Origin: a virus
Reading direction: 5' to 3' (one strand)
Virus record (IMG/VR): IMGVR_UViG_3300009082_000008
Coordinates: 1-45,165 of that record
Length of the DNA: 45,165 nucleotides
Numbering within the stretch: the first letter of the stretch is position 1; the number at the start of each line of letters is the position of its first letter. Below the pieces are notes generated by a model that was given only the letters and a program-made list of their open reading frames with translations, was not told where the DNA came from and made no database searches. This document shows positions 5,944 through 34,176 of this stretch, piece by piece. The position numbers were made by a program, and so were the translations under genes.

Positions 5944-5958
5944 GGCGGATCATCCGCC
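5944..5958. repeat. 15-bp palindrome at helicase stop
   Basis: GGCGGAT-C-ATCCGCC is a perfect 7+1+7 palindrome containing the stop codon of the helicase gene; its inner part is again the ATCATCCG variant of the iteron. It may terminate or attenuate transcription between helicase and primase, or be an end site of the origin. Confidence 0.5.
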
Positions 5959-7686
5959 GGAAAGCAATGACAGGTCGGTTACGCGGATCCCGTAGTAGAT
6001 GCGATCGCCGGTGTTGTTCTTCTGAAAGCCTTTTTTGTCGAGAGACAGTGCAACTTTTTTCTTGCTGGGCAGGTACTTGTCGTCTTTGCGATCGTCGATG
6101 TTGTTTCGGAACCAGGTCCGGAAGTTGGAGTACACATCCCTGAAGTACATCCAGTCGTCAGGATTGGTGATGTCGCACGATGTTTCGATGAACTGGCCGA
6201 GGGTGTCTTCCGATAGGCGCAGTTGCTCGATGTCCGCCTTTATCCGTTTGGGCGGGACCAGGCCGTCACGCTGCCAGAGTAGGCAGCCGCGTACGAGCCA
6301 GGCTAACACCCAGGGGAGATTATCGAGCAGCCGGCCGGGGAGTCCCGGATCCTTTTTACGATATATTTCTGCGTTGTGCGGATCCTCGCGGGCCTTGATC
6401 TCCGGATCGTCGACGTAGCGCAGCGGGTAACGGATAAAGAGGAGTCGCTGCAGGAGGGCAAAATCTTTGGTGAGCCCTTGAGGTATATCGTTTGTGTAGA
6501 GGAATAGGGTGTGAGTAGGACGAAAGTTGATCTCAAAACGATCATGGGGACTCCTGGCCGTGACGGTGTCGGCGCCGGTGAGGCGCTTGACTCGGCCTGC
6601 CGAGATACGTTGCCCTTCGTCGGTTTCCGAGGCGATGACGAAGCGGCGGCCGTAGAGGGACATCATGTCTGCGGAGGGCCCTGCTGATGAGCGGGGGTTC
6701 TTCTGTTCGAGGATCATTTCTGGCTGGATGGACCAGGCGAGCTCGCCGAGGGCCGCCTTGATGGTTTCGAACATGGTGCCCTTGCCGTTACGGCCGTCGC
6801 CCAGGGCGGTGGCGATAAAATGCTCAGTGGTCAGGCCGGTTATGCTGTAGCCGAAAAGACGGTGGACGAAGGCAATGACATCTTGTTCATCCAGGTGGAT
6901 TTCGCTGACGAATTTTTCCCAGGGTGGAAAGCCGAAGTTTTCACCGGTCTGGAGGTAGTCCTGGCAGTCAGGAAAGTCGACGGGTACGGCGGTTACCAGG
7001 TAGTCACCAGGGCGGCCGGGAAGGAGCCGGCCGGTACGGAGATCGACCACTCCATTTTTGCAGGGCAGCAGCCAGGGTTGCTGGTCTATTTCGTCGCCGA
7101 CGATGGCGAGCGAGTCGTTTCCGATCTTGTGTGACCACTCCAGGCAGTTCTTTGCTCCGCGCACACTGCGAAGTCGGTCGACTCGGCGGGTGTAGGCTTT
7201 GCGTTCGTCCGTGTAGCGGCTGGCTTCGTAAGCTGCTTTTGCTGCAGCCGTGCGGGCGGCGTCTTCTCCTTCGGTGTCTCCGGAGTTTTTGCAAGCGGTT
7301 GCAATGTCATCTTGCTGTTTCTTCCGGTCTCGCGCTTCGTTTATAAGAGGCGTGATCCGCTCGACCTCCCGAAGGTAAATGCTTGCCACGTCTTCAACAC
7401 AGGCATGGGACAGGTCCAGCTTGTCATCTTCCCAGTGGACACCGTTCCACCACATCCATCTATTTGTCCGCTTGACATAGATGATCTTGTCGCACATGAG
7501 ACGGGCCAGGAGGACACCGTCCCCTCTCTCGTTGTTGAGGAGACACTGGCGGACGGCTCTTCCGTCGATAGTGGGCGGGCCGCCGCTGTCCTTGGGTTCT
7601 TCGGGTGGCAATGCCGCCTCTTCTGCCTGTCGGCGGGCTTCAACTTGTGCGCGGATATCGATGATGTTGGAGGGTAAATCAGGCAC
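5950..7686 (-). CDS. D5/P4-type SF3 replicative helicase
   Basis: 578 aa from GTG 7686, chosen because GGAGG lies five bases upstream inside the end of the preceding gene. The first 230 residues include a D5_N-like region (WMWWNGVHWEDD) and an Ala/Arg/Lys helical insertion. The helicase core has a Walker A (GDGRNGKGT, about 296-304), an acidic strand (RFVIASETDE, about 348-357) and the motif C asparagine strand (HTLFLYTNDIP, about 392-402). The C-terminal 100 residues look like a winged-helix DNA-binding module. Such proteins form hexameric helicases that open phage and plasmid origins. A separate primase gene follows the iterons, so this protein probably supplies origin opening and helicase action. 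Confidence 0.9.
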   Translation of the reverse strand: MPDLPSNIIDIRAQVEARRQAEEAALPPEEPKDSGGPPTIDGRAVRQCLLNNERGDGVLLARLMCDKIIYVKRTNRWMWWNGVHWEDDKLDLSHACVEDVASIYLREVERITPLINEARDRKKQQDDIATACKNSGDTEGEDAARTAAAKAAYEASRYTDERKAYTRRVDRLRSVRGAKNCLEWSHKIGNDSLAIVGDEIDQQPWLLPCKNGVVDLRTGRLLPGRPGDYLVTAVPVDFPDCQDYLQTGENFGFPPWEKFVSEIHLDEQDVIAFVHRLFGYSITGLTTEHFIATALGDGRNGKGTMFETIKAALGELAWSIQPEMILEQKNPRSSAGPSADMMSLYGRRFVIASETDEGQRISAGRVKRLTGADTVTARSPHDRFEINFRPTHTLFLYTNDIPQGLTKDFALLQRLLFIRYPLRYVDDPEIKAREDPHNAEIYRKKDPGLPGRLLDNLPWVLAWLVRGCLLWQRDGLVPPKRIKADIEQLRLSEDTLGQFIETSCDITNPDDWMYFRDVYSNFRTWFRNNIDDRKDDKYLPSKKKVALSLDKKGFQKNNTGDRIYYGIRVTDLSLLSGG

Positions 7687-8029
7687 CGGCGCCTCCAGAA
7701 AAGCGGTTTCTCCAGGCACGGACGGTGTCGGAAGTGATGCCAATGAAGGATGCTATCTTCTGGTTGTCGGATGAATGCTCGATGAGGATGCGAAGCAGGA
7801 GGAACTGGCTGCACGAAAGCCGGGACTTGGAGAGGACGGTGTTTGTCCGCCAGCTGCCACACCAACCACACCTGGTACAATGGATCCGGCGGCCAGCTCG
7901 CCAACCGTCAACGACACGGTGCGAAAGCTGAGCCTTGCAGCGGGGGCAAACCTCCTGCACACCCAGTTGCTCCATCACCAGCGGGCGGGACGAATCCTCT
8001 AACATGTCGAAAATACGGTGATTTTTCAT
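7679..8029 (-). CDS. Zinc-finger plus HTH DNA-binding protein
   Basis: 116 aa. Residues 28-57 form a four-cysteine zinc finger (CPRC ... CTRCGWCG), and the C-terminal half is a helix-turn-helix (NQKIASFIGITSDTVRAWRNRF). The combination resembles the N-terminal DNA-binding part of IS1/IS1595-type transposases, but no catalytic domain follows, and the gene overlaps the helicase start by 8 bases. Its position makes it a candidate initiator or transcription factor for the iteron region. Start ATG 8029 has GGTGGAAAA upstream. Confidence 0.65.
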   Translation of the reverse strand: MKNHRIFDMLEDSSRPLVMEQLGVQEVCPRCKAQLSHRVVDGWRAGRRIHCTRCGWCGSWRTNTVLSKSRLSCSQFLLLRILIEHSSDNQKIASFIGITSDTVRAWRNRFSGGAGA

Positions 8030-8115: not shown

Positions 8116-8760
8116 CTACTTTATCAGGCCCTGCCGCTTTAGTTCGTGGTTGAACCGCTCATCGAACTTCTCTCTGATGAACTTCTGCAGCGGTTCGAGG
8201 ACTTCGCGCTTCCTGATCATCGTTGCGACTGATATCATCTTGCGCTCGTAGACAGGCAAACGCCCTCCACCCTTGTGCCGGGAGAATACTCCGAGGTGAT
8301 AACCCGCAGCACCGCTTTTACCGAACTTGACAGCCGAGAAAAACGCCCTGAGTCTGGTCACCCTGCCACCACGAAGCGTTTGAACCTGTACTCCTGTCCG
8401 GTCCTTTGCCGTGCGTCGCGTAATCCGTGAAGACTTCCGGTTCATCTTCACCAGGGTGTTACCCTTAAAACGGAACTCTGTCGCACCTAAATACGCCAGG
8501 CTAATCCCGCCGCTCATGAAATAGATGTGGGCGGTCAGGTCAGAGCCAATATATCCAGACGTCTCGATCCTGTCCTTACCTGAGCTTTTCTTAAGCAGGT
8601 CACTCTGTTTGATGTTCCAGATCTTTGACATTCGTCTGACAGATTCAGTTTTGGCCTGAGTCTTTACTCTGTTAAGAGCAGACTTTGCCGCCTTATCAAC
8701 CTTCTTGGGGTCGAGATTCTTCAAAACTTCCTTAATCCCCTTCACCTCGATACGGATCAT
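8116..8760 (-). CDS. Minor tail protein Z (gpZ-like), in the early region
   Basis: 214 aa. The N-terminus (LDPKKVDKAAKSALNRVKTQAKTESVRRMSK) matches the typical start of the prophage minor tail protein Z family, in which an Asp-Pro-Lys motif leads into a long basic helix. The middle is basic and beta-rich (TLRGGRVTRLRAFFSAV), and the end is helical. In lambda, gpZ acts in tail completion and DNA positioning, and its gene sits beside U. Here it lies about 20 kb from the tail genes, between helicase and MazG-like genes. Start ATG 8760 overlaps the upstream stop (ATGA). Confidence 0.65.
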   Translation of the reverse strand: MIRIEVKGIKEVLKNLDPKKVDKAAKSALNRVKTQAKTESVRRMSKIWNIKQSDLLKKSSGKDRIETSGYIGSDLTAHIYFMSGGISLAYLGATEFRFKGNTLVKMNRKSSRITRRTAKDRTGVQVQTLRGGRVTRLRAFFSAVKFGKSGAAGYHLGVFSRHKGGGRLPVYERKMISVATMIRKREVLEPLQKFIREKFDERFNHELKRQGLIK

Positions 8761-10453: not shown

Positions 10454-10675
10454 TTACGGCCTCTGATGCATTGGCGTCTTTAGCAATTTGTCCTCACACT
10501 TAACCCAGAGATCCACATCGTAGAGGGTGTAGTTGCCACCAGGCCCACCTTTTACCGGCCAGTAAGGGTCCGTAAAATCCAACTTGACTTTGAAAGGTAT
10601 AGGTTTTTTCTTCAAACCGAATTCCTGCTGATTCGAGTATTTGCTTTGCTTTCGGATCGTGGCATAAAGCTGCAT
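10454..10675 (-). CDS. Hypothetical early protein
   Basis: 73 aa from ATG 10675 (AAAGGAGGAAGGG upstream). Basic N-terminus (QLYATIRKQSKYSNQQEFG), then strands with Trp and aromatic residues (DFTDPYWPVKGGPGGNYTLYDVDLWV). No recognised domain. It is the first gene downstream of the structured non-coding region and might be controlled by it. Confidence 0.55.
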   Translation of the reverse strand: MQLYATIRKQSKYSNQQEFGLKKKPIPFKVKLDFTDPYWPVKGGPGGNYTLYDVDLWVKCEDKLLKTPMHQRP

Positions 10676-10689
10676 CCCTTCCTCCTTTG

Positions 10690-11015
10690 CCGATAACATG
10701 GCCGGTCTCTCCCGGCTGTCACGCCTTGCCGACGGCGGCGTTCCCCCCGCTGGCGGGACTAGGCGGCTGCGCTTGACCTTGGTCTAGGGGAGCTTTACCG
10801 CAGCTCACTCCCCAGGTACACCCTCGCCCGTACTGCGTCCCTCGTTGTTGTGGGTATATGTAACCCCCTCAAGCGTACATTTCCTTAGGCGACCAAGCCG
10901 GATACTCCTTTCGAGTTTATTCGCCGGAGGGGAAACTTGGTAAAAAGAGGCGGCGCGAGCGGAGGAGCTCGCTGCCCGGGTAAGGAGAGGGCAAACCCGG
11001 ACGCGCCGCCTTACT
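10690..11015 (-). ncRNA. Structured GC-rich non-coding region, candidate phage RNA
   Basis: The 346 bases between coding regions (10676-11021) contain no supported gene but many consistent hairpins. There is a three-way junction closed by GGCGGCGC (10949-10956) and GCGCCGCC (11003-11010), holding hairpins GAGC/GCTC (10957-10970) and CCGGGT/ACCCGG (10976-11000). Other stems are GGCGA/TCGCC, GGGGAG/CTCCCC (near 10777-10813), ACGCC/GGCGT (near 10721-10741) and GCCGG/CCGGC (10701-10716). Three GTAC segments could pair in mutually exclusive ways, as in a switch. On the minus strand the junction is followed by TCTTTTT (a possible terminator) and one loop is TCCTCC; on the plus strand that loop is GGAGGA. 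I give minus because both flanking genes run that way; the strand is not proved. I cannot assign a known RNA class. Confidence 0.55.
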
Positions 11016-11021
11016 GGTCAA

Positions 11022-11216
11022 CTATTGGCTCCAGGTCGCAACAACCGCTGCCCGGTCTGCTGGGGACAGCTCGTATTGCTCCTGGTGCTTATCGATTGCA
11101 GCTACGCAGGAATTACCAACCAATCCGCCCAGGACGAAGAGGATCACATAGGGAAACAGTTGTCGCAACAGATCAAGCACCAGCGACTTTCGCCGCTTCC
11201 TCACGTAGTAGCACAT
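11022..11216 (-). CDS. Small membrane protein
   Basis: 64 aa with a basic start (MCYYVRKRRKSLVLDLLRQ), one transmembrane helix (FPYVILFVLGGLVGNSCVAA) and a polar C-terminus. It overlaps the 11201 ORF by 16 bases in another frame and has AGGAGGACAGGGC upstream of ATG 11216. Function unknown. Confidence 0.6.
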   Translation of the reverse strand: MCYYVRKRRKSLVLDLLRQLFPYVILFVLGGLVGNSCVAAIDKHQEQYELSPADRAAVVATWSQ

Positions 11217-11339: not shown

Positions 11340-11798
11340 TTACTCCTCGTCGATCATCTGGATAACGGACATGATCTGCTGGATAACCTGGAACCCCTCC
11401 AGCTCTATCTTCTTCCTCTCAGCAGGGGTGATCCGGCCATCCATGATTGCATCCGAAAAAGCGGAAATATACTCACCGAACTCCTTCACGCACTGGTGAG
11501 ATTGCCGAACGATATCCTTTGTATTGGAAAGACCTGCGGGAAGGGGGATCACCATGAAATTAAACCGGTGAGCCAGATAAAGGATCGGGGCCATTGCATT
11601 CTCTTTCGACTGGCCCTCGATAATAGCAGCGCGGATAACGGTCTCCAGGCGATCAAGGGGGTTCAGTGTGCCGCTGTCTTCAAAATCAGTGGCCGGCTCT
11701 TTCCATTTTCCAACCAGGCTGACGCTCTTCTGAATAGCTTTTGCCACTGCCACTGTATTTCGGCCTATGCAACGCTCCATCGCCTCATGACTTTTCAT
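11340..11798 (-). CDS. CII-like phage regulatory protein (CP76 type)
   Basis: 152 aa from ATG 11798 (GGAGGATTGTG upstream). The N-terminus SHEAMERCIG, followed by VAKAIQKSVSLVGKWKEP and NPLDRLETVIRAA, fits the phage regulatory CII family, in which an HTH is followed by a helical body; the C-terminal DGRITPAERKKIELEG is also typical. These proteins act in the lysis-lysogeny decision. It is expressed from the operator-covered promoter at 11830-11868. Confidence 0.7.
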   Translation of the reverse strand: MKSHEAMERCIGRNTVAVAKAIQKSVSLVGKWKEPATDFEDSGTLNPLDRLETVIRAAIIEGQSKENAMAPILYLAHRFNFMVIPLPAGLSNTKDIVRQSHQCVKEFGEYISAFSDAIMDGRITPAERKKIELEGFQVIQQIMSVIQMIDEE

Positions 11799-11829
11799 CA
11801 CAATCCTCCGTTACGATCAGGGAAAAACC

Positions 11830-11868
11830 CTGTAATATACTTTTGACCGATTACAGGCAAACTGTAAT
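11830..11868 (-). promoter_or_regulatory. Early leftward promoter with three CTGTAAT operators
   Basis: On the minus strand TTGCCT (11855-11860) and TATTAC (11832-11837) are 17 bases apart, a good sigma-70 promoter for the CII-like gene. Half-sites CTGTAAT/ATTACAG at 11830-11836, 11850-11856 and 11862-11868 overlap the -10, touch the -35 and lie just upstream. The element AAACCCTGTAATATA (11825-11839) recurs, with one change, at 13793-13807. Confidence 0.65.
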
Positions 11869-12083
11869 CATGCAGCCTTGTCTTCGTCCTTGAAGACCAG
11901 GTAGCCACTCTCATTCAGGTCCTTCACAATCGCCTTGAAAGCATAGCCAGTCTCGCAGGGGTACGTTCCCGAAAGAATGCGAAGCACAGTCGGCGCCGCA
12001 TGACCCCTACCCTTGGCCCACCTTGTCAGGTTAAGGCCTGCATCGATCATCTTCTGTTTTGTGGCACTGAAATCAATTTTCAT
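11868..12083 (-). CDS. Cro/Ner-like small DNA-binding protein
   Basis: 71 aa: MKIDFSATKQKMIDAGLNL then TRWAKGRGHAAPTVLRILSGTYPCETGYAFKAIVK. The pattern of a helix, then L-x-x-W-A-x-x-x-G-x-x-x-x-T-V-x-R-x-L-x-G, is that of short phage HTH proteins of the BcepMu gp16/Cro-like type. It is the first gene of the leftward transcript, divergent from the lysogeny region, as a Cro should be. SD AGGAAAT lies before ATG 12083. Confidence 0.65.
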   Translation of the reverse strand: MKIDFSATKQKMIDAGLNLTRWAKGRGHAAPTVLRILSGTYPCETGYAFKAIVKDLNESGYLVFKDEDKAA

Positions 12084-12482: not shown

Positions 12483-12884
12483 ATGTCAACAGAAAAATTG
12501 ATAAATATGAACTTTGAATTAGTAATAAACAGATTAAAACAAGCGCTAAATCTTAAAAAAGACAGTGATATCGCTGACTTGCTAGGATTTACTAAAACCA
12601 CTTTTTCTCAAAGAAAAAAAAGAGGCGCCCTTCCTGTTGACAAAATTAAACTAATTTGCAATGAGAATAGCCTGAGTGAGGATTGGATATTTAATGGGAC
12701 AGGCGAAATGTACGTCAGTGAGCCCATTCACCTGCCCTACGGCGATCTGCCCCAGTTAAGCGAAAGCCAGCTGGAAGCAGCCCGCATCCTCGGGATGCTC
12801 AGCGTTGAGGACCAGGCCAAGATGATCGATAGCATGAAAAAGGAAATAATCGAGCGGTTGACCGGCAAGAAAACGGCGGAGTGA
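12483..12884 (+). CDS. CI-like repressor, HTH only
   Basis: 133 aa. The N-terminal HTH (INRLKQALNLKKDSDIADLLGFTKTTFSQRKKRGALP) followed by ICNENSLSEDWIFNGTGEM is the classic bacteriophage CI repressor N-domain. There is no S24 peptidase domain, so SOS-driven self-cleavage is not expected; the C-terminal 45 residues form a helix for oligomerisation. Start is ATG 12483, or the ATG at 12507 after a short leader. The first 60 codons are AT-rich compared with the rest, hinting at a chimeric gene. Confidence 0.75.
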   Translation: MSTEKLINMNFELVINRLKQALNLKKDSDIADLLGFTKTTFSQRKKRGALPVDKIKLICNENSLSEDWIFNGTGEMYVSEPIHLPYGDLPQLSESQLEAARILGMLSVEDQAKMIDSMKKEIIERLTGKKTAE

Positions 12885-24008: not shown

Positions 24009-26035
24009 TAGCTGTGCCTCCGTAGTACACGAATTGCCGTCTCTTCCATTTCACGGCGCAGGTCAGAAATCAGGGCTTTGTTGCCGTTTTCTATGGTTAT
24101 CGGGACATTGGCTGAGAAGTTGTTGGCGGCCCCTGCATATCCCATTCTTTCCCTCGCCATGTCAGCCACGGTTTTAACGCCCTCGCCACGGTGGAGTAGA
24201 TAGGGTCCAGTTGCCGGGACAAAATCAGTGCCCGTGGCATAGCTGCCCAACAGTGTGTATTTGCCAGAGGACGCCGCACTGGCAGCCCAACCACTGCCGG
24301 AAGATCCGGTTCCGGAAGAGCCAAACATCCCAAACAGCCCGCCTAAAAAATCCCCCCAACCACCACTCTTGCCCATCATGCTGGCCATGGTCATTTGAGC
24401 CATCGTATCGGCCCACATATCAATCAGTGAGTCCATGAATGAGGAAAAGTAATCAGAGAGGCTTTTCATCTCGCCGCGCATGCCGTCACCGAATACCGAC
24501 GAGAAGGAACTTTGCATACCGCTCGCCGTACCCTGTGCCATATCCGACATTTGCTGGAAGGTCGAGGGCAGGGTTTCCTTATACTTCTCGATGCCTTCCT
24601 TCCAGCCGTCTGCGGCACTGCCATTGTAGGCCTGCACTGCCTTTTCCAGCGCAACGATGCCCTGCCTGGTCTGTTCAATCGCCTGGGACTGGGCCAGCCA
24701 ACCTGAGGCGTCAGTGGCCTTGTCCATCGTGCCGAGCCACTGCTCCTGGACAGAGAGTAATTCCTGATTGAGTGCCAACCGCTGTTCAGCAGCTTCTGCT
24801 TCGCTGATTTGGTTGTAGGCTTCGGCGGTGTCGACCAGGGAGAGCTGGTGCTGAATATCGGCTTCGCGAACCTGCTGCTTCAGTTCAAGTTCTTTGGCCA
24901 GCGCTTCTGCCGCCTCTTTTCTCGCTTTGTCCTCCGATTCCCACCATTTTGCCATCTTGACTGAAAATGCCTCCAGTTCTGACGTCTCCATGGCGTAGGC
25001 ACTTGGTAGGGTTTCGGATTTAGCGGCTCTCTCTTTAAGAGATTTGGTCGCCTTGGGAGGCTTGCCCGAGGGTGTCCCGCCCCCTGCAACGATTGATGTT
25101 TTCTTCGGTGCGAATTTGGTCTCGATGTCATTAATCGTAGCGAACGCCGCTTCGTCGATAATGGCCATCTGTCGCTTCAGTTCGTCCCGCCCGGCTTTCG
25201 TTATTATCCCTTTCCACTTTGCGTCATTGATGGCTTTCATTTTATCCATGAACGCAAAATATGCGACAGATGCTTGTTGGAGGGTTTTGATAAAATCCAC
25301 CAAGGGCATGATACCGTTATTGACAATACCGACCGCAATACCGGTGAAAGAGGCTTTTAGCGTGGTCAGGTTATCGTTGAATTGTTCCGCGGCCTTGGCA
25401 GCTTCACCGGTAAACACAACACCAAGCGCCCGCGCCTCCGTTGCCATATCGTTCAGGCCACTCGCACCGCTGTTCAGCAGAGGTATGAGATCCGCTCCGC
25501 TCCGGCCGAACACTTTCATTGACAGTGCGGTTTTTTCGGCACCGTCCTCCATTGTCGAAAACTTCTCGGCCACATCGCGAAACACATCGTCAGTTTTGCG
25601 CAGCGTGCCATCGGTGTTTTTAATCTCTACGCCAATCTCTTTGAATGCGCGAGCTTGCTCTTTGCCACCCAAACTGGCATCGCGCATATTTTTACTCAGC
25701 TGTTTCAGGCCCACGCCAAGTTGATCGAGCGACACATCGGCCAGGTCTCCGGCATATTTCAGCTCGGACAGCGCCTCTACAGACACACCGACTTTCTGGG
25801 ACATCTTTCCCATTTCGTCAGCCGCATCAATAGTGCTTTTGATCCAGGCCGCAAACGCTCCGGCAGATAGGGTCACTCCCAAGCCCGCCATAACGCCAGT
25901 CAGTCCCGCGAATTTACCTTTTGCCGATTCGAGGTCTTTTGTCAGCCCACTGAACTGCCCCTTTAGCTCACGAAACGCCTGCTGGGTCTGGTTCAAAGCG
26001 GTGATGACTAGCTCGGTTTTATTTTGCTGACCCAT
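24008..26035 (-). CDS. Tail tape measure protein
   Basis: 675 aa. N-terminal coiled coil (TALNQTQQAFRELKGQFSGLTKDLESAKGKF), hydrophobic LTGVMAGLGVTLSAGAFAAWI, then IDAADEMGKMSQKVGVSVEALSELKYAGDLA, all standard tape-measure sequence. A second hydrophobic part (VVNNGIMPLVDFIKTL), a helical Lys/Glu region with KKTSIVAGGGTPSGKPPKATK, and a C-terminal Gly/Ser region end the protein. At about 0.15 nm per residue it suggests a tail near 100 nm (rule of thumb). Sets tail length and probably aids DNA entry. Confidence 0.9.
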   Translation of the reverse strand: MGQQNKTELVITALNQTQQAFRELKGQFSGLTKDLESAKGKFAGLTGVMAGLGVTLSAGAFAAWIKSTIDAADEMGKMSQKVGVSVEALSELKYAGDLADVSLDQLGVGLKQLSKNMRDASLGGKEQARAFKEIGVEIKNTDGTLRKTDDVFRDVAEKFSTMEDGAEKTALSMKVFGRSGADLIPLLNSGASGLNDMATEARALGVVFTGEAAKAAEQFNDNLTTLKASFTGIAVGIVNNGIMPLVDFIKTLQQASVAYFAFMDKMKAINDAKWKGIITKAGRDELKRQMAIIDEAAFATINDIETKFAPKKTSIVAGGGTPSGKPPKATKSLKERAAKSETLPSAYAMETSELEAFSVKMAKWWESEDKARKEAAEALAKELELKQQVREADIQHQLSLVDTAEAYNQISEAEAAEQRLALNQELLSVQEQWLGTMDKATDASGWLAQSQAIEQTRQGIVALEKAVQAYNGSAADGWKEGIEKYKETLPSTFQQMSDMAQGTASGMQSSFSSVFGDGMRGEMKSLSDYFSSFMDSLIDMWADTMAQMTMASMMGKSGGWGDFLGGLFGMFGSSGTGSSGSGWAASAASSGKYTLLGSYATGTDFVPATGPYLLHRGEGVKTVADMARERMGYAGAANNFSANVPITIENGNKALISDLRREMEETAIRVLRRHS

Positions 26036-26050
26036 CGATTTATCCTCTCG

Positions 26051-26715
26051 TTAATCCGGACAGGTGGAACACGCCAATGTGAAGTGCTCGCCGAATTTTT
26101 GCCTGCATTCGTTCAGGTATTTGCCGTTGCAGTATTCCCCAGCCGTCTGATCCCGTCGGCCATGGCCTGGTTGATGCTCGCCTTCGGGACCATGGCCGAA
26201 GAAGTTCAGCACTGCCTCGCGGAACAGCAACTCGCGTTGCCGGTGCTTCCGGTAGGGGAGACACTCTCCGAGAGTGTATCCCCAGAGGATGTCGTCTCGT
26301 TTGACAATGTCTCCTCCGCAGAGGATGACGCAGAGTTGGTCGATCCAGTCCCTTTCCCCATCAGTCCCCGGATCTTTCCTATTACCCCCGCCAGCTTGTT
26401 TAAAAGTGAAGCTGTCGGGTTGCAGATAAAAAAATCCTCAATTACCTCGAAGGCTGTTTCAGGAGGGATAGACCATTCGAGCTCTTCGGCCAGTGTGGGT
26501 AGATCCTTGCCCTTCAGGGCAGTTCCCGCTTCCGTCAAGACAATGGCCAGTGCCTGGTAGAGGCGGTCTTCAAGGGTCTCGATAATTTCCTGAACGGTGA
26601 AGTCCTCTGATATTTCAACACCAGCCAAAACTCCCTTGAGCTGCTTGATCTGCCCCAGCACCAACGCCCGCTGGATGTAGGTTTTACCGCCTATTTCATA
26701 ACTCTTCTCTTCCAT
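26051..26715 (-). CDS. Tail assembly chaperone GT, -1 frameshift product
   Basis: If ribosomes slip back one base on the T7 run (T-TTT-TTT, plus coordinates 26428-26434), the first 96 residues of the G-like protein join a 125-residue extension that ends at 26051. I translated it from sequence; it starts YLQPDSFTFKQAGGG and contains GERDWIDQLCVILCGGDIVKRD, ILWGYTLGECLPYRKHRQREL and FREAVLNFFGHGPEGE. These look like real protein and align with the W-x-x-x-L-W-G-Y style of G-T extensions. Lambda G/GT works by the same -1 slip. Total length 221 aa. Confidence 0.75.
26206..26715 (-). CDS. Tail assembly chaperone G (unshifted form)
   Basis: 169 aa: EEKSYEIGGKTYIQRALVLGQIKQLKGVLAGVEIS ... ALAIVLTEAGTALKGKD ... 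LAEELEWSIPPETAFEVIEDFF. It has the helical chaperone fold seen in phage G-like proteins, between tube and tape measure. From about residue 100 the frame becomes Ser/Thr-rich and ends in CCSARQC, which is poor protein, as expected when the reading frame is shared with an extension. Start ATG 26715 (AAAGGACACC). Confidence 0.75.
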   Translation of the reverse strand: MEEKSYEIGGKTYIQRALVLGQIKQLKGVLAGVEISEDFTVQEIIETLEDRLYQALAIVLTEAGTALKGKDLPTLAEELEWSIPPETAFEVIEDFFICNPTASLLNKLAGVIGKIRGLMGKGTGSTNSASSSAEETLSNETTSSGDTLSESVSPTGSTGNASCCSARQC

Positions 26716-26732
26716 GGTGTCCTTTCAAGATC

Positions 26733-26765
26733 AGACCTGCCAGGTTTTTAAAACCTGGCAGGTCT
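26733..26765. repeat. 33-bp palindrome, copy 1
   Basis: AGACCTGCCAGGTTTT - T - AAAACCTGGCAGGTCT, a perfect 16-bp inverted repeat. The same arms recur exactly at 41065-41097 with G in the centre. It sits downstream of the tube gene and before G, so it could set the ratio between them. Short dispersed elements of this type occur in bacterial genomes, from memory. Confidence 0.75.
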
Positions 26766-26776
26766 CGGGCTTTGGG

Positions 26777-27718
26777 TTAATCAAACAGAATGCTTACTTC
26801 ATCATCGCCGGTTGTCATGGCCAGGGAGAAGCTCAGGCCTGCGACCATCAACTTGGCACGTTCTTCGTCGGAGATCTTGGTGGTGACGACCTTCGGCGCT
26901 GTGATCTTGAAGCGGTTGTATTGGGTGGCGCCGACGCTGCCGAGGCTCATGGCTGCTGATGTTCCGGCTTTCCACTTGCCAAAGAAATCGTAGGTGGCCA
27001 CGGTTACCATCTCCGGATCGAACTTACCGGTGGGGCGGCGGTCGGTTACCAGGGCCGAGATATAGCCTGTCGCGGTATTGATGCTTTCGCGCAGGGTTAT
27101 CTCGTTGCCCATGTCCAGGTCGAAGCTGTTGATGTTTGCCGCATAGGCTCCGATGGTGAAGGCTGAGGACAGCAGCACCGGCGGATCGGTGGCCTCAAAG
27201 GTCGGGGAGATTATTGCGCCGTCCACCACGCCGTCATAGACGCCGGTGAACTCAAAATCAGCAAAGCAGATCTCGCCGTTTTTGCCGGAAAACTTCACGT
27301 TGCCGCGGCAGCCCTTGAGCTTCTTGATTACGCCGTCCTCGTAGGACCACATTGTCAGACAGGGTATCCCGGTGGAAGCCGGGGCATAGGTGACCGTTTC
27401 CACTCCAACCGTGGTAACCACAGTCTCGGCAAAACCGCAGGCCCGCAGGAATTTGCCCAGGGCAGGCTTTACCGTGGAGGAATAGGCGGCTCCGGGGCCT
27501 TTTAGCTCGGCGCGGAAAGAGAGGTTACCGCTGGTCTTGCCGGGTACCGGCTGCAGCTTAGAGAGGGAGTCAACGACCGCCTCACGTTCATTCATCCCGA
27601 AATCAAAATCGATGGCCGGATTGATGACGAGAATCCCGCCATCAGTAACAGTGATGGTCTCTGCCGTCCCTTCCGTGCCCTCAATTTTTGCTGCTATCAC
27701 TCTGCGTCTGGTCAGCAT
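26777..27718 (-). CDS. Major tail tube protein
   Basis: 313 aa. MLTRRRVIAAKIEGTEGTAETITVTDGGILVINPAI followed by EREAVVDSLSKLQPVPGKTSGNLSF is typical of phage tail tube proteins, with a conserved start and a substitute for the NTR-like loop. The C-terminus (MVAGLSFSLAMTTGDDEVSILFD) closes the beta-sandwich. Located directly before the chaperone, as in lambda V-G. SD GAGGAGGTAAAAG lies inside the preceding small ORF. Confidence 0.8.
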   Translation of the reverse strand: MLTRRRVIAAKIEGTEGTAETITVTDGGILVINPAIDFDFGMNEREAVVDSLSKLQPVPGKTSGNLSFRAELKGPGAAYSSTVKPALGKFLRACGFAETVVTTVGVETVTYAPASTGIPCLTMWSYEDGVIKKLKGCRGNVKFSGKNGEICFADFEFTGVYDGVVDGAIISPTFEATDPPVLLSSAFTIGAYAANINSFDLDMGNEITLRESINTATGYISALVTDRRPTGKFDPEMVTVATYDFFGKWKAGTSAAMSLGSVGATQYNRFKITAPKVVTTKISDEERAKLMVAGLSFSLAMTTGDDEVSILFD

Positions 27719-27812
27719 CTTTTACCTCCTCGTTGTGCTCTTTGTCTGCGCTATCGTTAATGATGATCGTTTGCGAGGCGTCCCGCTGTGTCACCCTGAA
27801 ACCGTTTTGCAT
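27681..27812 (-). CDS. Small acidic ORF before the tube gene
   Basis: 43 aa, MQNGFRVTQRDASQTIIIN, ending in a Glu/Asp/Lys-rich disordered tail. ATG 27812 follows GGAGAGCCGCC. Its 3' end overlaps the tube start and supplies that gene's ribosome-binding site, so it may couple translation. Too short to assign. Confidence 0.5.
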   Translation of the reverse strand: MQNGFRVTQRDASQTIIINDSADKEHNEEVKDADQTQSDSSKN

Positions 27813-27822
27813 GGCGGCTCTC

Positions 27823-28263
27823 CTATAGCTCCCACAATGGGGTGCGGTAGTATATTTTGATCCGGACAATTCCGGCGCCGATCGGCTTGTCGCCTTGCTC
27901 CATGTTGAGGCCGTGGCTGATCAGGTCGGTGTCAACGGCCAGGCCGCCCCAGGTGAGGTCGGTACCGATAGCCTTGACCACATCGGCGTTTATTTTTCGC
28001 ACGTCGGCGCGTGCGGCGGACCCTTTAGCGTCGGAGACGAGATCCACGATCAGGAAGTGGCCCTGGAGCCCAACGGGGGTTTCCTCATAGTCGATCGCAC
28101 AGTCTCCGTCATAGATACAAATCGCGGGCAATTCGGTTTCCGGTATCGGGGTAATCCGCCAGTCAAAAACATTCCGCCCGGCGTTAGTGGCATAGCCGCC
28201 CGTGGTGAGGATGGTTTTCATCCGGGTTTCTATTGCGTCGACTATTTGCTGGCGCTTACTCAT
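27823..28263 (-). CDS. Tail terminator-like (gpU-like) protein
   Basis: 146 aa: RQQIVDAIETRMKTILTTGGYATNAGRNVFDWRITPIPETELPAICIYDG and a C-terminus VRIKIYYRTPLWEL. The pattern (helix, A-I-x-x-R-M-K ... V-F-x-W-R-x-x-P-x-P-x-x-E-L-P-A) is characteristic of minor tail/terminator proteins that stop tube growth and dock the head. Its location just upstream of the tube gene supports this. Confidence 0.7.
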   Translation of the reverse strand: MSKRQQIVDAIETRMKTILTTGGYATNAGRNVFDWRITPIPETELPAICIYDGDCAIDYEETPVGLQGHFLIVDLVSDAKGSAARADVRKINADVVKAIGTDLTWGGLAVDTDLISHGLNMEQGDKPIGAGIVRIKIYYRTPLWEL

Positions 28264-28312
28264 CTAAACTTCTCCCTGTACCCTGTTCAACTGTTTAACT
28301 GTTCAACTGCCC

Positions 28313-28636
28313 CTAAGCCAACACCTCCAGGACAACAAAGCCTGACACCTGAGGGTATTGCAGTTTCTGCCCATTACTGGTTACAACCCGAGCGCACACA
28401 CTGTATTTTTGCCCGGCGGTACCGCCCTTGAATTTGCAGATGACGTAGGTGTCGGCATAGACTGCGACGTTGGAAACCAGCGAGGCAGCGACATCCTGAC
28501 CGGCTGAGTCATAAACCAGCACTTCGGCAGAGGACAGCGTTTCGGATTCGTTGAGCCAGCCCTGACCGTCTGACCGGCGGAACTGGAAGTAGTAGACTAT
28601 TTCTTCCCAGGCGGATTTTTGAATGGCTTTACTCAT
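28313..28636 (-). CDS. Small neck/tail protein, Ig-like
   Basis: 107 aa: SKAIQKSAWEEIVYYFQFRRSDG, then ETLSSAEVLVYDSAGQDVAASLVSN and YVICKFKGGTAGQKYSVCARV. This is a common phage head-tail region protein with a small beta-sandwich (K-x-x-E-E-x-x-Y-Y-x-F start, V-x-x-S-x-G-x-D-V). Start overlaps the nonapeptide gene stop (ATGA). Role unproven. Confidence 0.6.
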   Translation of the reverse strand: MSKAIQKSAWEEIVYYFQFRRSDGQGWLNESETLSSAEVLVYDSAGQDVAASLVSNVAVYADTYVICKFKGGTAGQKYSVCARVVTSNGQKLQYPQVSGFVVLEVLA

Positions 28637-29052
28637 AGTTTGTTGACCTCGTGAGAAGATGTCCGCTGGTTGACCTGCCGGGTAAACGATCGCGAATCAA
28701 CCTCGAAGATGAATGAACGCTGCTTGACCTGATGAATAAAGGATCGCGGATCAACCTCGTGAAAAAATGAGCGGTGGTCGACCTGGTGAATAAAGGATCT
28801 CGGATCAACCTCGTGAGAAAATGACCTCTGGTCAACCTGCTGCACAAAGGATCGTGGGTCGACCTCGTGAGAAAATGAGCGCTGGTTGACCGGCCCAATA
28901 AAAGATCTCGGATCAACCTCGCAGATGAATGAGCGCTGGTTGACCTGGTGTCCGCGGATGTAGGCCCCGACAAAGGCCTCGGCTGCATCCACCCCCAGCC
29001 ATCCAGGGTAGATCGTACTATCAGCTACCCAGCGGGGATAGAGTCCGTTCAT
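28633..29052 (-). CDS. Nonapeptide-repeat structural protein
   Basis: 139 aa. After 37 residues it consists of eleven tandem nonapeptides of the form V-[DN]-x-R-S-F-x-x-[EQ], alternating between an acid-ended and an amide-ended version, so the true DNA period is 54 bases (about 28644-28945). Regular short-period repeats of this type make beta-solenoids or triple-stranded stalks. Comparable R-[ST]-[FY] repeat proteins appear in the head-tail connector region of other phages. Start overlaps the preceding stop (ATGA). Confidence 0.7.
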   Translation of the reverse strand: MNGLYPRWVADSTIYPGWLGVDAAEAFVGAYIRGHQVNQRSFICEVDPRSFIGPVNQRSFSHEVDPRSFVQQVDQRSFSHEVDPRSFIHQVDHRSFFHEVDPRSFIHQVKQRSFIFEVDSRSFTRQVNQRTSSHEVNKL

Positions 29053-29627
29053 ACCGGAGTCCTGGTGTTCTTGTCTGCTGAAACAGTAAAGGTGTGCAGG
29101 AGCGAAACACCGTCATCCTCGTAGATACTCACGGAAAGTCCGTCGCTTGAGATGATCGCTTTGTTTGTCTGCATCTTCCGACCCTTGAGTGCTTCCGTCT
29201 TGGCTATCGTAGCCGCTGCCAACGCTGCCGTCAGTGTCGCGTCTTGTTCGACCGATAGTCCAGACCCAGTAGAGTTCGTGACAACTGTACTCGCGGCACT
29301 TTGAAGAAGAAGGACCTGCACCCCTTCGGAATAAGCTACGGGGTCGCCTGAGAATCCCCCGACAAGGTTTCCTCCTGAAATTTTGGCGACGTAGTTTCCT
29401 GTCGCGAACTGAACCTGCCAATCGTCCAGTAGGTTGACGGTGACACCGACGGAGACTGCCCCTCCGAGGCTTTCCCCTCCTGATGCTCCTGCGATTTGGG
29501 CATAAGCTATTCCTTGAGCAGAGGCTTCTGCTTCCCGAATGTCGGAGAGTAGCCCGATCACGGAAACATCAGCTTGCGCCTCTGAAATTGATATAAGTTT
29601 TTCTACAAAATCGTAGCTATATATCAT
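29049..29627 (-). CDS. Appendage-associated structural protein
   Basis: 192 aa starting MIYSYDFVEKLISISEAQADV with LLSDIREAEASAQGIAY; then a beta-rich middle (VTVNLLDDWQVQFATGNYVAKISGGNLVGG) and a C-terminal helix plus beta hairpin (SVSIYEDDGVSLLHTFTVS). Similar D-D-W-x-V-x-F-x-x-G-x-Y sequences occur in phage proteins next to fibre stalks. No function assigned. Confidence 0.5.
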   Translation of the reverse strand: MIYSYDFVEKLISISEAQADVSVIGLLSDIREAEASAQGIAYAQIAGASGGESLGGAVSVGVTVNLLDDWQVQFATGNYVAKISGGNLVGGFSGDPVAYSEGVQVLLLQSAASTVVTNSTGSGLSVEQDATLTAALAAATIAKTEALKGRKMQTNKAIISSDGLSVSIYEDDGVSLLHTFTVSADKNTRTPV

Positions 29628-29630
29628 CCA

Positions 29631-31010
29631 TTACACCGCAATTGCGTCAGTTGTCCTGATAGCCGCTATAGTAGTATTTGCTCCTTCAACGAGTGCAGAG
29701 TTCTCAAAAGGAAGAATTCCTTTCTTCCTAACCCTTGCAATAACGGAGAATGGAGCTACATAGATGATTCCTGTTTTGGAAACACTAGTTGATAACGCCA
29801 CTTGGTCAATCAGTGGAACATAGAACCCGCCAGTCTTGCCTGTTGGGTCAGGAGTCACACCAGAAAAGGTACGGGTCGCCCATGAGGTGTACTCGTACTG
29901 GACATCCCCAATTCTGATCTTCCCGGCCTGAGTTATGTCAGCCGCTATATCAGCCGTTGCAGTGATGCTGTTACTCGTAACACTCGCAATCGTGAACTGT
30001 GATTTGTTGATCGCCAGCGGGTCTCCAGTTGCCCTTGCTACGAGTACCTGATCGCCGGAGACGACACCAGAAACGGTAACGGCAAACGAGACAGGGTAGG
30101 TAATGCCGGTAGTCCCGGCCGTGTCGGTCAGTTCGAGGTTGGCCGTGTCGGAGATGCCGGCGAACCAGACACCTGCAGCACCAAAAAGCTTGCCACCAGC
30201 GAAGGTTCCAAGAGGCGAAGCCTTAATAGTTGACGATGCTGCTGCTAGCTTCTGGAAGAACCGCCCCTGCTCAATCGAGGTATCGAGTGCGGAATCGTTT
30301 AACCTATTCGTCAGGAACTTTATGTATTTGTAAGCGTGTGCCGCTGTCGTAGTCGCGCAGGAAGTCAGATCAACTTCAATACCATAGGTGTGCGCCCCGG
30401 TTCCAGTATCTCTACTTATTGAAGCAAAGTTGATCGTCGCTCCGGTAAAGTCACCTGCTTCGCTGTCTGCGTCATCATTCAGGTCATTTCCGGTAGCAAG
30501 AGGTATCGGGTTACGTCCACCTGTTGCTGTTGCGGTAACTTCAAAGTGGTCGTAAGTATCTCCAAGATTTCGAATGAAAGCTGTGATCTTCTTGCTGTCA
30601 ACGTCAGTCCCGGCATCTGTGACCTTTACAAGTTGGTCAATGTGTCCTGAGACATAGGTTGGTTCGTTGGTGACAAGAACTCCATTCTGCATCCAGTAGA
30701 CAAGGGAGCCTGCCGCAATAGTACCGAGGGTGTAGAAGTTGGCCCAAATGTCGTCGGTGGTAGTGTCAACAATCGAACCACCCTTGAGATAACCAAGATC
30801 TGAATCTGCTCCGAACGTCCAGCCGTTGATAAGCTCAAACTCTGTCGGGGTATTTGCCTTGATCGGTACGGTGTCGTCCATGTTCGCCGCATCATCTAGC
30901 AAATCCATGATGTGCGAGTAGAGTTCCTGCACGGTATAGCGAGTTGTCCCGGAGACGTGGTTGATAGTCTTCGTCGTGTAGTTCAGGGTGTATTCTGTTG
31001 CGATTGCCAT
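29631..31010 (-). CDS. Large appendage protein
   Basis: 459 aa. N-terminus MAIATEYTLNYTTKTINHVSGTTRYTVQELYSHIMDLLDD leads into extensive Thr/Asp/Gly beta-structure, ending RVRKKGILPFENSALVEGANTTIAAIRTTDAIAV. It precedes the repeat-stalk protein and follows the beta-helix protein, so the group probably builds a collar or side fibre. No enzyme motif seen. Confidence 0.55.
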   Translation of the reverse strand: MAIATEYTLNYTTKTINHVSGTTRYTVQELYSHIMDLLDDAANMDDTVPIKANTPTEFELINGWTFGADSDLGYLKGGSIVDTTTDDIWANFYTLGTIAAGSLVYWMQNGVLVTNEPTYVSGHIDQLVKVTDAGTDVDSKKITAFIRNLGDTYDHFEVTATATGGRNPIPLATGNDLNDDADSEAGDFTGATINFASISRDTGTGAHTYGIEVDLTSCATTTAAHAYKYIKFLTNRLNDSALDTSIEQGRFFQKLAAASSTIKASPLGTFAGGKLFGAAGVWFAGISDTANLELTDTAGTTGITYPVSFAVTVSGVVSGDQVLVARATGDPLAINKSQFTIASVTSNSITATADIAADITQAGKIRIGDVQYEYTSWATRTFSGVTPDPTGKTGGFYVPLIDQVALSTSVSKTGIIYVAPFSVIARVRKKGILPFENSALVEGANTTIAAIRTTDAIAV

Positions 31011-31022
31011 TGTTCTGTCTCC

Positions 31023-32840
31023 TTATGCTATCGTGTCTGGTATCTGTGCCACGGTCAAGGCAAAGCCTGCGCTCGTTATCGTTCCTGCATATTCGTAGGG
31101 GAGGTATTTCGTTGCTGCTGTTCCCTTCCGAACCCTCACGATGATGTTCGTATCTGCGGTGTAAGTGTAACTTGCGGAATACGTCCCAGTTGTCGATTGA
31201 GGAGCAGCTATCTCGCTCATGTCAGAAGTTTTGTAAATTGCGAACTCGGAACCGTTTGCCATACCGTTGATAGAGATGGTTACGGTTGCCGGGGCAAGAC
31301 CGTTGCCGTGGTCGTACTCAAATGCCCCAACATCAACAATCTCGTCAGGGTGTGTGCTCGGTTCGTAGTTTGGGCGTACTGCATCTACTATGTCGTAACC
31401 GTAAGCATTATAGACAGGAATTCCTGAATTTACCTGTGGAGAAGAAGCTGACGCAGGATAAAGGACCAAGTTTGAGTAATCGGCGAAATCCGTAGTAGCC
31501 ATTGTTATGTCTGTGGACCCTGTAAGCCCCCACGTAAAAGGGACCTTGATTGTACCGCTTCCAGCGTCTGTATAACTTATTGCTGTACCACCAGATGACA
31601 GAGCCACGGTAAACGTGTCTGTCGACACTACAGTCTTGAGGTAAACAATTGTATTAAAGGTGAGTCCTGTTGGAGCTACAGCACTTCCTCCATCTATAAA
31701 TCTAACCGGTGTACCTGCAGTGATGCCGTGTCCAGCTAAAGTCACGAGCAACAAACCCGAAGAATTACTAAAAGTAACCGCTTTAAAATCTGTTTCTTCA
31801 CCGGCATTTGCTGTAGCGGAAATACAGGTCGGTACATAATTATTAACCCAGTTAGCAACTGTATTACCCACTGATATATTGTTATGAATAAACATATCAG
31901 TGCTAACAGGGTTACTAGCTGAAAAACCATTCTTGTTTCTTACGCAAGTATTGTTATATATAGCCGTACCTCGAGAACCACCATATCCTGCTAAACTAAT
32001 TCCCGTAGCCATATTGTAAACAATATTGTTATAGGCTTGACACCCAGGGACGCCAAAGAATATGCCTACAGTGCCTGAATAGTTCCCCCCCAATGTGTTA
32101 CTGAACACAATACTGTTGCAAACGGTACAAAACATCCTAATGAAACTAAAGCCATTTGAAGATGTTCCTCCAGCTAGTACTCTGATTCCGTTTACAATAG
32201 AAAACTGTGTGTTTAACTTCAACGCACTACCACTAAAGCTAGCGGAATAGTTAAGTAGATAGCCATTCCCGGTACTACCTGCATGAAATGCAGGTGACCT
32301 GATACCACCAACAGAAGAAGTTATTAATATCGACGCAACTGGAAGATCAATTGCTGGTGACGTAGTTGATCTAGTTTCGGTAAAATTATCGCCTATCTCA
32401 CAGACTTCGGAATCGTATAAACTAGTTCCAGCTACTTGTCGAGCATCGAGCCAAGAAAATATACCATCGTAAATCCTCTCACTTCCAGACGCGCCATATC
32501 GCGCCTTTTGCACTGTCGTCAGATCAAGAAAGTAAGCACCCTTGACAGTATGCGTTCCTGAGCCAGTACCGGAGAACGTAACAAGTCCAGTTGCACCACC
32601 AGCAATGGCATGGGCCGAGGTATCGTAGAGGATAAACTTACCAGCATCGGCACCTTGACGGATGTAGTAGCGGGACTGAGAAGGGCTAAACGTGGGCAGT
32701 GAGCCGGTCGTGGAAAACTCTACCCCTGCGCCGTCTCTCATGCCATGCGTGGCGAGGTTAACCACATCACCGGAGTCAGTGAATGTGACTGTTTTGCCTG
32801 CCAAGCCGCCGAAGCAGACTAGAGAATAAACTGTTGCCAT
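31023..32840 (-). CDS. Right-handed beta-helix spike/appendage protein
   Basis: 605 aa. The N-terminus (KTVTFTDSGDVVNLATHGMRDGAGVEFSTTGSLP) carries the YYIRQGADAGKF repeat type often seen in phage tail proteins. The centre (about 200-330) has parallel beta-helix turns with N-x-I-V/N-N-x-x-x-x-N steps (NIVYNMATGISLAG, AIYNNTCVRNKNGFSA, FIHNNISVGN), as in pectate-lyase-like spikes. The C-terminus has an Ig-like part (ATVTISINGMANGSEFAIY). Likely surface recognition or polysaccharide binding; catalytic residues not identifiable. Confidence 0.65.
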   Translation of the reverse strand: MATVYSLVCFGGLAGKTVTFTDSGDVVNLATHGMRDGAGVEFSTTGSLPTFSPSQSRYYIRQGADAGKFILYDTSAHAIAGGATGLVTFSGTGSGTHTVKGAYFLDLTTVQKARYGASGSERIYDGIFSWLDARQVAGTSLYDSEVCEIGDNFTETRSTTSPAIDLPVASILITSSVGGIRSPAFHAGSTGNGYLLNYSASFSGSALKLNTQFSIVNGIRVLAGGTSSNGFSFIRMFCTVCNSIVFSNTLGGNYSGTVGIFFGVPGCQAYNNIVYNMATGISLAGYGGSRGTAIYNNTCVRNKNGFSASNPVSTDMFIHNNISVGNTVANWVNNYVPTCISATANAGEETDFKAVTFSNSSGLLLVTLAGHGITAGTPVRFIDGGSAVAPTGLTFNTIVYLKTVVSTDTFTVALSSGGTAISYTDAGSGTIKVPFTWGLTGSTDITMATTDFADYSNLVLYPASASSPQVNSGIPVYNAYGYDIVDAVRPNYEPSTHPDEIVDVGAFEYDHGNGLAPATVTISINGMANGSEFAIYKTSDMSEIAAPQSTTGTYSASYTYTADTNIIVRVRKGTAATKYLPYEYAGTITSAGFALTVAQIPDTIA

Positions 32841-32842
32841 TG

Positions 32843-33019
32843 CTACCCCTTACTTTTACGGTACTCGGTGCACAGCACTGTCAAAACATCCTTACCGTCG
32901 ACATACCCAACAGCCACACTTGCCCCATGCTTTTCGGCGTTTTCAAGTATCGCGTGGATGCCGCATCCCTTTAGACCAGGTGGGCATTTGTTGCATGTTG
33001 TGCAGAGGGTTGTTGCCAT
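32843..33019 (-). CDS. Cysteine-rich mini-protein
   Basis: 58 aa, read directly: MATTLCTTCNKCPPGLKGCG, then IHAILENAEKHGASVAVGYV and an end VLTVLCTEYRKSKG. Five to six cysteines in the first 20 residues (C-x2-C-x2-C-x6-C) suggest metal or Fe-S binding. AGGTGG precedes ATG 33019; stop at 32843, two bases before the beta-helix gene. Unknown function. Confidence 0.6.
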   Translation of the reverse strand: MATTLCTTCNKCPPGLKGCGIHAILENAEKHGASVAVGYVDGKDVLTVLCTEYRKSKG

Positions 33020-33068
33020 TTAAACCACCTACGTTGGGCCGAGTCCTGCCCAAGTTAAGAGAGAGTAT

Positions 33069-33218
33069 TCAACTGCCATGTTTCATTGCCTCTTTTGCGT
33101 TATCGTAGGCTTGATCTATCAAACTATTCACTATCGCCTGCTTCCCCATTCCGCTCCACTCCCGAAGCTTCTTTATCCGCTCGTTGTTGAGCCTTACGTC
33201 GCATTTGAAGTCTTGCAT
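33069..33218 (-). CDS. Small ribbon-helix-helix-like protein
   Basis: 49 aa, read directly: MQDFKCDVRLNNERIKKLRE, then WSGMGKQAIVNSLIDQAYDN. A short strand followed by two helices with basic residues is the Arc/MetJ type of fold. AAGGA lies about 10 bases before the ATG. It may regulate late or lysis genes. Not confirmed. Confidence 0.5.
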   Translation of the reverse strand: MQDFKCDVRLNNERIKKLREWSGMGKQAIVNSLIDQAYDNAKEAMKHGS

Positions 33219-33299
33219 AGAGTCGCCGTCCTTCTCTGACGCAGTTCATGGAACAGATAGATGCGTCTTGCTCTAATGTGCGAACGCGCCAGTAGATTG

Positions 33300-33560
33300 C
33301 TATCTCCTATACCCATTAATAATAGTCTCCAGCTCACAGGCGTACCCCTGTAGCTGCTCGACGGTGATGACGTAGGCCCGGAGCACCTCGGATGGTGCTA
33401 CAACGGGCGGCAAATCTTGCAGGGCCAGGTGCGGGCGGATCAGTGGCGGCGGCTGTGGGCAAGGTATTGCTGTCGGCACCAGCGTCTCGGTCGGAGCGGC
33501 ACAGGCTAAAATCAGTGAACAGTAGCCAGTGAACAGTAACCAGTGAAAAGCTTTCTTCAT
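33300..33560 (-). CDS. o-spanin lipoprotein (Rz1-like)
   Basis: 86 aa from ATG 33560 (GGAGG seven bases upstream), nested at the end of the Rz gene (ATGA). It has a lipoprotein signal with lipobox LILAC (MKKAFHWLLFTGYCSLILAC) and a Pro-rich mature part (IPCPQPPPLIRP), ending in a helix (YVITVEQLQGYACELETIINGYRR). Outer-membrane partner of the i-spanin; disrupts the outer membrane in Gram-negative hosts. Its signal region is built from a tandem repeat. Confidence 0.8.
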   Translation of the reverse strand: MKKAFHWLLFTGYCSLILACAAPTETLVPTAIPCPQPPPLIRPHLALQDLPPVVAPSEVLRAYVITVEQLQGYACELETIINGYRR

Positions 33561-33928
33561 TGCCATGCCTCCACCAGCACAGTCGCTTTGCCTGCTGCCC
33601 ATTTCACGGCTCCTGTGCAATCGGTTGGTACCTGTTCGACCTGGAGTTCGGCAATGCGGCGGTTGCTTTCGGCCCGCACCTTTGCTGCGGCCTGCTGGGC
33701 TGCCAGTGCCTGTTCTCTTGCCCGCTCGCCCTCTTCTTTCCATTTCCGGACTGCCTGGTTCTGTGTGGAAATCTTGGTGGTGAGGGTTTCGTTTTGCGCC
33801 TTGGCGGTGGCGAGTCCGGCTCGGGAGAGTTGCAGCCATATGGTCAGGACGATGACAACCAGGACTAGGGCAGCAATGACCCAGTGGCGAACATCGGCGG
33901 CGAATTTTGCGAAGAGGGCCGGGATCAC
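33557..33928 (-). CDS. i-spanin (Rz-like)
   Basis: 123 aa from GTG 33928, overlapping the holin stop (GTGA). N-terminal transmembrane helix (VIAALVLVVIVLTIWLQL) then a long coiled coil of Ala/Glu/Gln/Lys (LATAKAQNETLTTKISTQNQAVRKWKEEGE...RAESNRRIAELQVEQ) and a C-terminal VPTDCTGAVKWAAGKA. This is the usual Rz architecture, and the overlapping lipoprotein confirms it. Confidence 0.8.
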   Translation of the reverse strand: MIPALFAKFAADVRHWVIAALVLVVIVLTIWLQLSRAGLATAKAQNETLTTKISTQNQAVRKWKEEGERAREQALAAQQAAAKVRAESNRRIAELQVEQVPTDCTGAVKWAAGKATVLVEAWQ

Positions 33929-34176
33929 TTATCTGCCTCCTGAGGTGTTGCTTTCGCGAGCGTGATGCCGGTAGCTATTTTGTTGATGCCGTAGAGAGAC
34001 AGGATCAACGTGAGCCAGCCCGTCTGCAGATCAGGAAGGGTGCGGGTAGAATAAACGATCCAGGCGGCATAGATCAGGTTGACCAGGAGCACCAGGGCGG
34101 CGGAGATCCGGGAGAAGCTCCACTGGCCGGTTGCGTCATCACGGAAGATCACGAGTATGGATTTTAGCCTTTTCAT
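33925..34176 (-). CDS. Putative holin
   Basis: 83 aa with two transmembrane helices (about 22-44, ISAALVLLVNLIYAAWIVY; and 52-72, GWLTLILSLYGINKIATGITL) and a charged tail. Two-TM class II holin topology, located directly before the spanins and after the amidase. Controls timing of lysis by opening the inner membrane. Family not pinned down. Confidence 0.6.
   Translation of the reverse strand: MKRLKSILVIFRDDATGQWSFSRISAALVLLVNLIYAAWIVYSTRTLPDLQTGWLTLILSLYGINKIATGITLAKATPQEADK

Follow-up and report, generated by a model that had tools for sequence, protein, structure and literature searches.

A conserved structured RNA element of tailed phages with its core in the early operon of a temperate phage

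Results

Genes and features of the locus

The window (the whole stretch of DNA analysed here, 45,165 nt) is a temperate-phage record whose early operon, according to a gene search, runs along the minus strand. At 10690-11015 this operon contains a gap that, as an earlier sequence-only reading had pointed out, has no supported ORF; it lies between a 64-aa ORF and an 81-aa ORF. The features referred to below are as follows.

12483-12884, repressor gene, divergent from the early operon
11868-12083, HTH gene, minus-strand early operon
11340-11801 (-), gene for a CII-like activator (Pfam and PHROG searches), marking the early-operon setting
11022-11216 (-), 64-aa ORF upstream of the gap (ORF list)
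10941-11011 (-), three-way junction, a probable intrinsic terminator, separate from the core
10699-10743 (-), conserved core, model R1 (49.6 bits, E about 5e-13, R1 E-values being rough)
10728-10767 (-), possible short S1 of a pseudoknot, GCCG (10767-10764) with CGGC (10731-10728)
10737-10741 (-), 5′ strand of S2, ACGCC (R1 alignment; helix covaries across the family)
10721-10725 (-), 3′ strand of S2, GGCGU (R1 alignment; helix covaries across the family)
10717-10720 (-), linker GACA (GAC is invariant in the 51-sequence alignment, partly by selection, because GAC belonged to the search pattern)
10701-10716 (-), S3 hairpin, GCCGG-GAGAGA-CCGGC (stem pairing retained across the family; scrambled-loop control)
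10454-10675 (-), downstream gene with a match to phrog_18597; the full ORF is 81 aa, 10454-10699
5950-7743, D5-type primase-helicase gene, minus-strand early operon, beyond the gap and small genes

The core therefore stands in the early transcript, with the CII-like gene before it and the replication genes after it. The phrog_18597 gene likely starts at the ATG at 10675-10673, which follows an AGGAGG and lies 25 nt 3′ of the S3 hairpin. Searches of Pfam and PHROG with the 64-aa ORF gave no match, and origin iterons were looked for in the gap and none was found. A gene resembling that of minor tail protein Z (Pfam) lies amid the early genes at 8116-8760 (-), an odd position for a tail gene.

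A 45-nt core and a separate junction

The sequence-only reading had seen in the gap a structured non-coding RNA with many GC-rich stems that it could assign to no class. What survives is a 45-nt core on the minus strand (10743-10699), at the 3′ end of the region, which that reading had not picked out; the rest of the 330 nt gained no support from comparison. The many stems are expected from the composition, as the fold of the whole 341-nt region was no better than those of dinucleotide shuffles (z -1.05 on the minus strand and +0.25 on the plus strand), and the sub-stretches 10800-10945 (z +0.11) and 10699-10800 (z -0.45) were likewise unremarkable. What rises above chance in the region is the core, by homology and covariation, and the junction, by stability. 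An Rfam scan of the region, the GOLLD and ROOL models included, gave no match, in agreement with the earlier statement that it belongs to no known class.

The three-way junction and closing stem that had been described are real, near 10948-10956/11003-11011, with z -4.17 on the minus strand (0/200 shuffles) and z -2.89 on the plus strand. The 9-bp closing stem ends at a T-run, with UCUUUUU directly 3′ on the minus strand, so that 10941-11011 combines the marks of an intrinsic terminator: a GC-rich stem, a U-run directly 3′ and a position near a gene end. Because of this U-run and the position just past the end of the 64-aa gene, the junction is most likely an intrinsic terminator with elaborate arms, which a consensus terminator scan misses because of the loop limit of the scan. 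With the terminator upstream, the core cannot serve its read-through. A sigma-70 scan found no promoter between the two.

A search for relatives with the helicase yielded three loci; the same search with the CII-like protein yielded none, and BLAST of a 501-nt region against annotated phages gave no match. The nearest relative, L002, whose helicase is 86% identical, has at the corresponding place a 690-nt gap with two copies of the core, scored by R1 at 40.0 and 22.2 bits. The L002 gap and the window have CAGCCGGGAGAGACCGGC in common, and the second L002 copy carries a compensatory change in the stem. The upstream part of the region gave no alignment with L002, in which a weaker stem, tailed by CUUUUUCUU, occupies the junction position. 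The earlier description is right that the sequence contains three GTAC strings and GGAGGA/TCCTCC loops, but the alternative pairings suggested for the former, and the CsrA-like and anti-Shine-Dalgarno roles suggested for the latter, find no comparative support, L002 being unalignable there.

Evidence for an RNA family

The covariance model R1 was trained on 51 sequences, with the window and L002 left out. A search of the window returned the core as the sole match, with no second copy, and the core has the layout that defines the element, namely S2, the linker GAC(A) and a 5-bp hairpin with a GARAGA loop.

When viral contigs were scanned with the 16-nt hairpin, at least 120 stretches were found, and in most of the matches listed the hairpin is preceded by GUGACA. 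With a pattern that left three stem positions free on each side, at least 120 stretches were again found in the viral contigs, compared with 3 for a control pattern with a scrambled loop, all of one sequence and with the stem unpaired; the counts from these scans are lower bounds from a non-random sample. The three free stem pairs were kept in 169 of the 175 distinct matches listed (chance, ~5%), about 80 of which carry evidence of covariation, because about half have a stem fixed by the first scan. Moreover, in 79 of the 175 matches listed, a perfect complement to the five bases 5′ of GACA lies no more than 60 nt upstream, compared with 24 expected and a maximum of 39 over 1000 permutations. 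All pairs hold in the 51-sequence alignment, with two-sided changes in 8 of 10 pairs and a covariation score of 0.651 (0.135 shuffled); because these 51 were chosen for complete pairing, the case should be judged on the permutation test and the control pattern. Covariation among phage relatives, which the sequence-only reading had named as a check on its RNA, was thus found for the 45-nt core alone.

A further helix, S1, was detected in 17 of 100 sequences, compared with 5.0 by permutation (maximum 11 over 200 permutations). Its 5′ strand typically lies 14-17 nt before S2 and its 3′ strand ends 0-3 nt before the 3′ strand of S2, and the resulting H-type pseudoknot (S1/S2) is present in about a fifth of members. 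S1 in the window has 4 bp at most, below the level used in the S1 test; it is supported in other members.

No family in Rfam 15 matches the element. We found no description of such a family in the openly searchable literature; subscription papers lay outside the search, and an earlier description is possible. The string GGGAGAGACC also occurs in flavivirus papers, dengue among them, probably by coincidence. We consider it very likely that the element represents a real conserved RNA family that is not in Rfam. The window sequence 10743-10699 (-) is the 3′ core of this RNA element, which belongs to many tailed phages and lies mostly in untranslated phage RNA.

A 155-nt form, with the H-type pseudoknot present, occurs in the enterobacterial phages mEp390, cdtI, P7, D6 and phiV10, and sequence related to it was found in 68 phage records, nearly all of them enterobacterial. 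In 11 aligned examples, S1 and S2 make a compact knot with two-sided changes, 3′ of which come UGAC and then a hairpin with a GAAGAG-type loop. The annotated gp36 of mEp390 (L174 2729-2971), an 80-aa hypothetical protein, overlaps this conserved form, and for this reason is probably not a gene. Phage epsilon15 (L287 2480-2700) lacks the 3′ core and has just the 5′ portion of the 155-nt form, and its record labels part of this stretch an RNase III site. The leader after the repressor of Stenotrophomonas phage BUCT708 (L289 2413-3000) holds two clear core matches and one weak one in tandem, plus the 155-nt form. A subgroup of loci (L023, L033, L064, L113, L129, L136, L197 and L251), several of them from Roseobacter relatives, has a GAGUAG(G) motif and a hairpin just 5′ of S2; GAGTAG is found in 15% of the upstream 200-nt stretches, compared with 1%.

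Distribution and gene context

R1 scores in 39 of 40 phage or viral records, which were chosen for already holding matches; there are usually one or two copies per record, some in tandem and some 41 kb apart. An exact 22-mer occurs in 49 GTDB contigs labelled Proteobacteria, Chloroflexi, Planctomycetes, Cyanobacteria, Acidobacteria, Bacteroidetes and others. Few host genomes contain the element (3 of 199 for the family that includes Roseovarius), as carriage by phages would predict. Carriers include lambdoid, P1-like, T1-like, N4-like, crAss-like and cyanobacterial phages.

In annotated records, which were hand-chosen from BLAST hits and are not random, the element usually resides in a CDS-free gap of unusual length, 310-1869 nt (mEp390, CS01, MinM2, a P1-like plasmid, Medea1, Alexa, Klebsiella P7641, Itty13, DIBBI, Cruim01, a crAss-like phage, PAKlein3 and two more plasmids). 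It occupies the early leader after the repressor in mEp390, cdtI, Medea1, Cruim01 and BUCT708, and the leader before the terminase genes in CS01, DIBBI, Itty13 and PAKlein3. Other annotated copies lie inside tRNA arrays, and units of ~105-160 nt are found between tRNA genes. A same-strand tRNA is nearby in 24 of the 128 matches listed, compared with ~2% at random positions; among the matches listed, 12 of the 14 same-strand tRNAs within 400 nt downstream begin 4-15 nt 3′ of the hairpin, and many downstream tRNAs are tRNA-Met. Gene starts led by a Shine-Dalgarno sequence are enriched 7-67 nt downstream (31% versus 10%). The genes downstream are diverse, both early and late, with no preferred family; ORF-based gene context in GC-rich loci is too noisy for sole use. 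There are exceptions to the usual setting: the copy in RcCWillis is antisense and beside the integrase gene, that in Pan5 lies in a 60-nt gap, others lie in short gaps before head-tail adaptor genes within translated late operons, one faces convergent genes, and in the Uetakeviruses the element forms a short separate unit, oriented against the late genes on either side.

Discussion

What might this element do for the phages that carry it? Because the downstream genes are so diverse, early and late, a gene-specific role is not indicated, and we dropped the idea of a gene-specific regulator. The spread over many host phyla makes either a universal target or action by the RNA alone likely. We tentatively favor, at a rough probability of 40%, a cis-acting RNA on the nascent transcript with put-like antitermination. 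The element would fold on the nascent transcript and, in its folded state, would act in cis on the transcription machinery, like the HK022 put RNA without being put; polymerase would thereby pass long untranslated or tRNA-bearing tracts otherwise prone to termination. We favor this reading for the placement in both early and late leaders and in tRNA arrays, and for the small number of copies per record.

Further put-like RNAs were reportedly the subject of work in 2011. The put RNA itself (putL and putR) folds on the nascent transcript, and in HK022 the nascent phage RNA alone is able to antiterminate (PMC9378689). It binds the zinc-binding domain of the RNAP beta′ subunit and suppresses termination, whereas antitermination by the element is our proposal, by analogy. 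Like put, the element is a small two-stem phage RNA with a short linker between helices, has an early-leader position (in mEp390, cdtI, Medea1, Cruim01 and BUCT708) and has no known phage partner protein; its spread is far wider. The element is not put itself, in that R1 finds nothing in HK022 26000-34000, which has no GGGAGAGACC within 1 mismatch, and a GARAGA hairpin is absent from the HK022 put region. The lambda nut site (boxA-boxB) is likewise an RNA hairpin in early phage leaders; the element differs in lacking boxA enrichment in the upstream 200 nt (CTCTTT, 4.4% versus a background of 2.3%; GCTCTT, 0.6% versus 4.3%), and, because its hexaloop is common to phages of unrelated hosts, it is not tied to one N protein. 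There was also no enrichment of ops strings upstream.

Several observations count against antitermination. First, terminators are not enriched downstream of the element. Second, copies occur in short gaps of translated late operons, antisense to an integrase gene, facing convergent genes and in the separate units of the Uetakeviruses. Third, the element is present in N4-like and crAss-like phages, which bring their own RNA polymerases. Fourth, the terminator in the window is upstream of the element. Given the exceptions, the lack of terminator enrichment and the adjacency to tRNA 5′ ends, cleavage or processing stays in play.

It is somewhat unlikely, but deserves serious thought, that the element is a self-cleaving ribozyme or an RNase processing signal at which the polycistronic phage RNA is cut, freeing tRNAs and downstream messages. 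The close spacing of 12 of the 14 downstream tRNAs among the matches listed fits such a cut, as do the enriched gene starts, the compact pseudoknot with near-invariant unpaired bases, and the tandem copies. Hammerhead, twister, pistol and hatchet ribozymes are also compact and show no gene preference, and some occur in phages. Against this, no conserved cleavage site is discernible from sequence, and no Rfam ribozyme model matches the element, which sets it outside the self-cleaving classes modelled there. In the crAss-like phage cr55_1, a Hatchet ribozyme (L278 6850-6949, 77.5 bits) lies ~3.3 kb downstream of the element, and its detection indicates that the Rfam ribozyme scan works.

A stable small RNA gene, released in the manner of a tRNA and acting in trans on a host machine, seems unlikely to us: the units of ~105-160 nt between tRNA genes and the independent Uetakevirus units would suit it, but the usual position is in the sense leaders of protein genes, and no constant terminator follows 3′ of the element. 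We doubt still more that it is a 5′-UTR element of the next gene, either a riboswitch or a translational control, because, although gene starts are enriched downstream and the hairpin in the window ends 25 nt before an ATG led by a Shine-Dalgarno sequence, the downstream gene family is not constant, and a tRNA or hundreds of untranslated bases often follow. The original view, in which the whole 330 nt with the junction makes up a single ornate RNA similar in kind to GOLLD and ROOL, is very improbable. In its favor, the region is non-coding throughout and L002 has its 690-nt gap with two core copies at the corresponding place, but the whole fold is not unusual, the upstream part cannot be aligned with L002, the GOLLD/ROOL models are unmatched and a terminator-like junction lies inside.

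GOLLD and ROOL resemble the element in being structured phage RNAs, and are often found near tRNA genes. They differ from it in size, the element having a core of 45 nt and a unit of about 70-160 nt; both are in Rfam, and without a covariance-model match the element was rejected as a member of either. What would be new is the RNA family, which membership tests place outside the known classes compared here; its mechanism may be of a known kind. We see an even chance that this is a class of phage RNA, from phages of hosts in many phyla, that either acts in cis on a universal host machine, as an antiterminator unrelated to put, or is a new self-cleaving ribozyme.

A compact RNA with near-invariant loop bases that so varied phages carry, yet absent from Rfam 15, suggests a solution that phages share and that targets a universal feature of the host. 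Were the element a ribozyme, it would constitute a new class. If the put-like antitermination that we favor is correct, RNA-only antitermination, as in HK022 put, would be far more widespread, and the element would hint at how phages transcribe their untranslated leaders and tRNA arrays.
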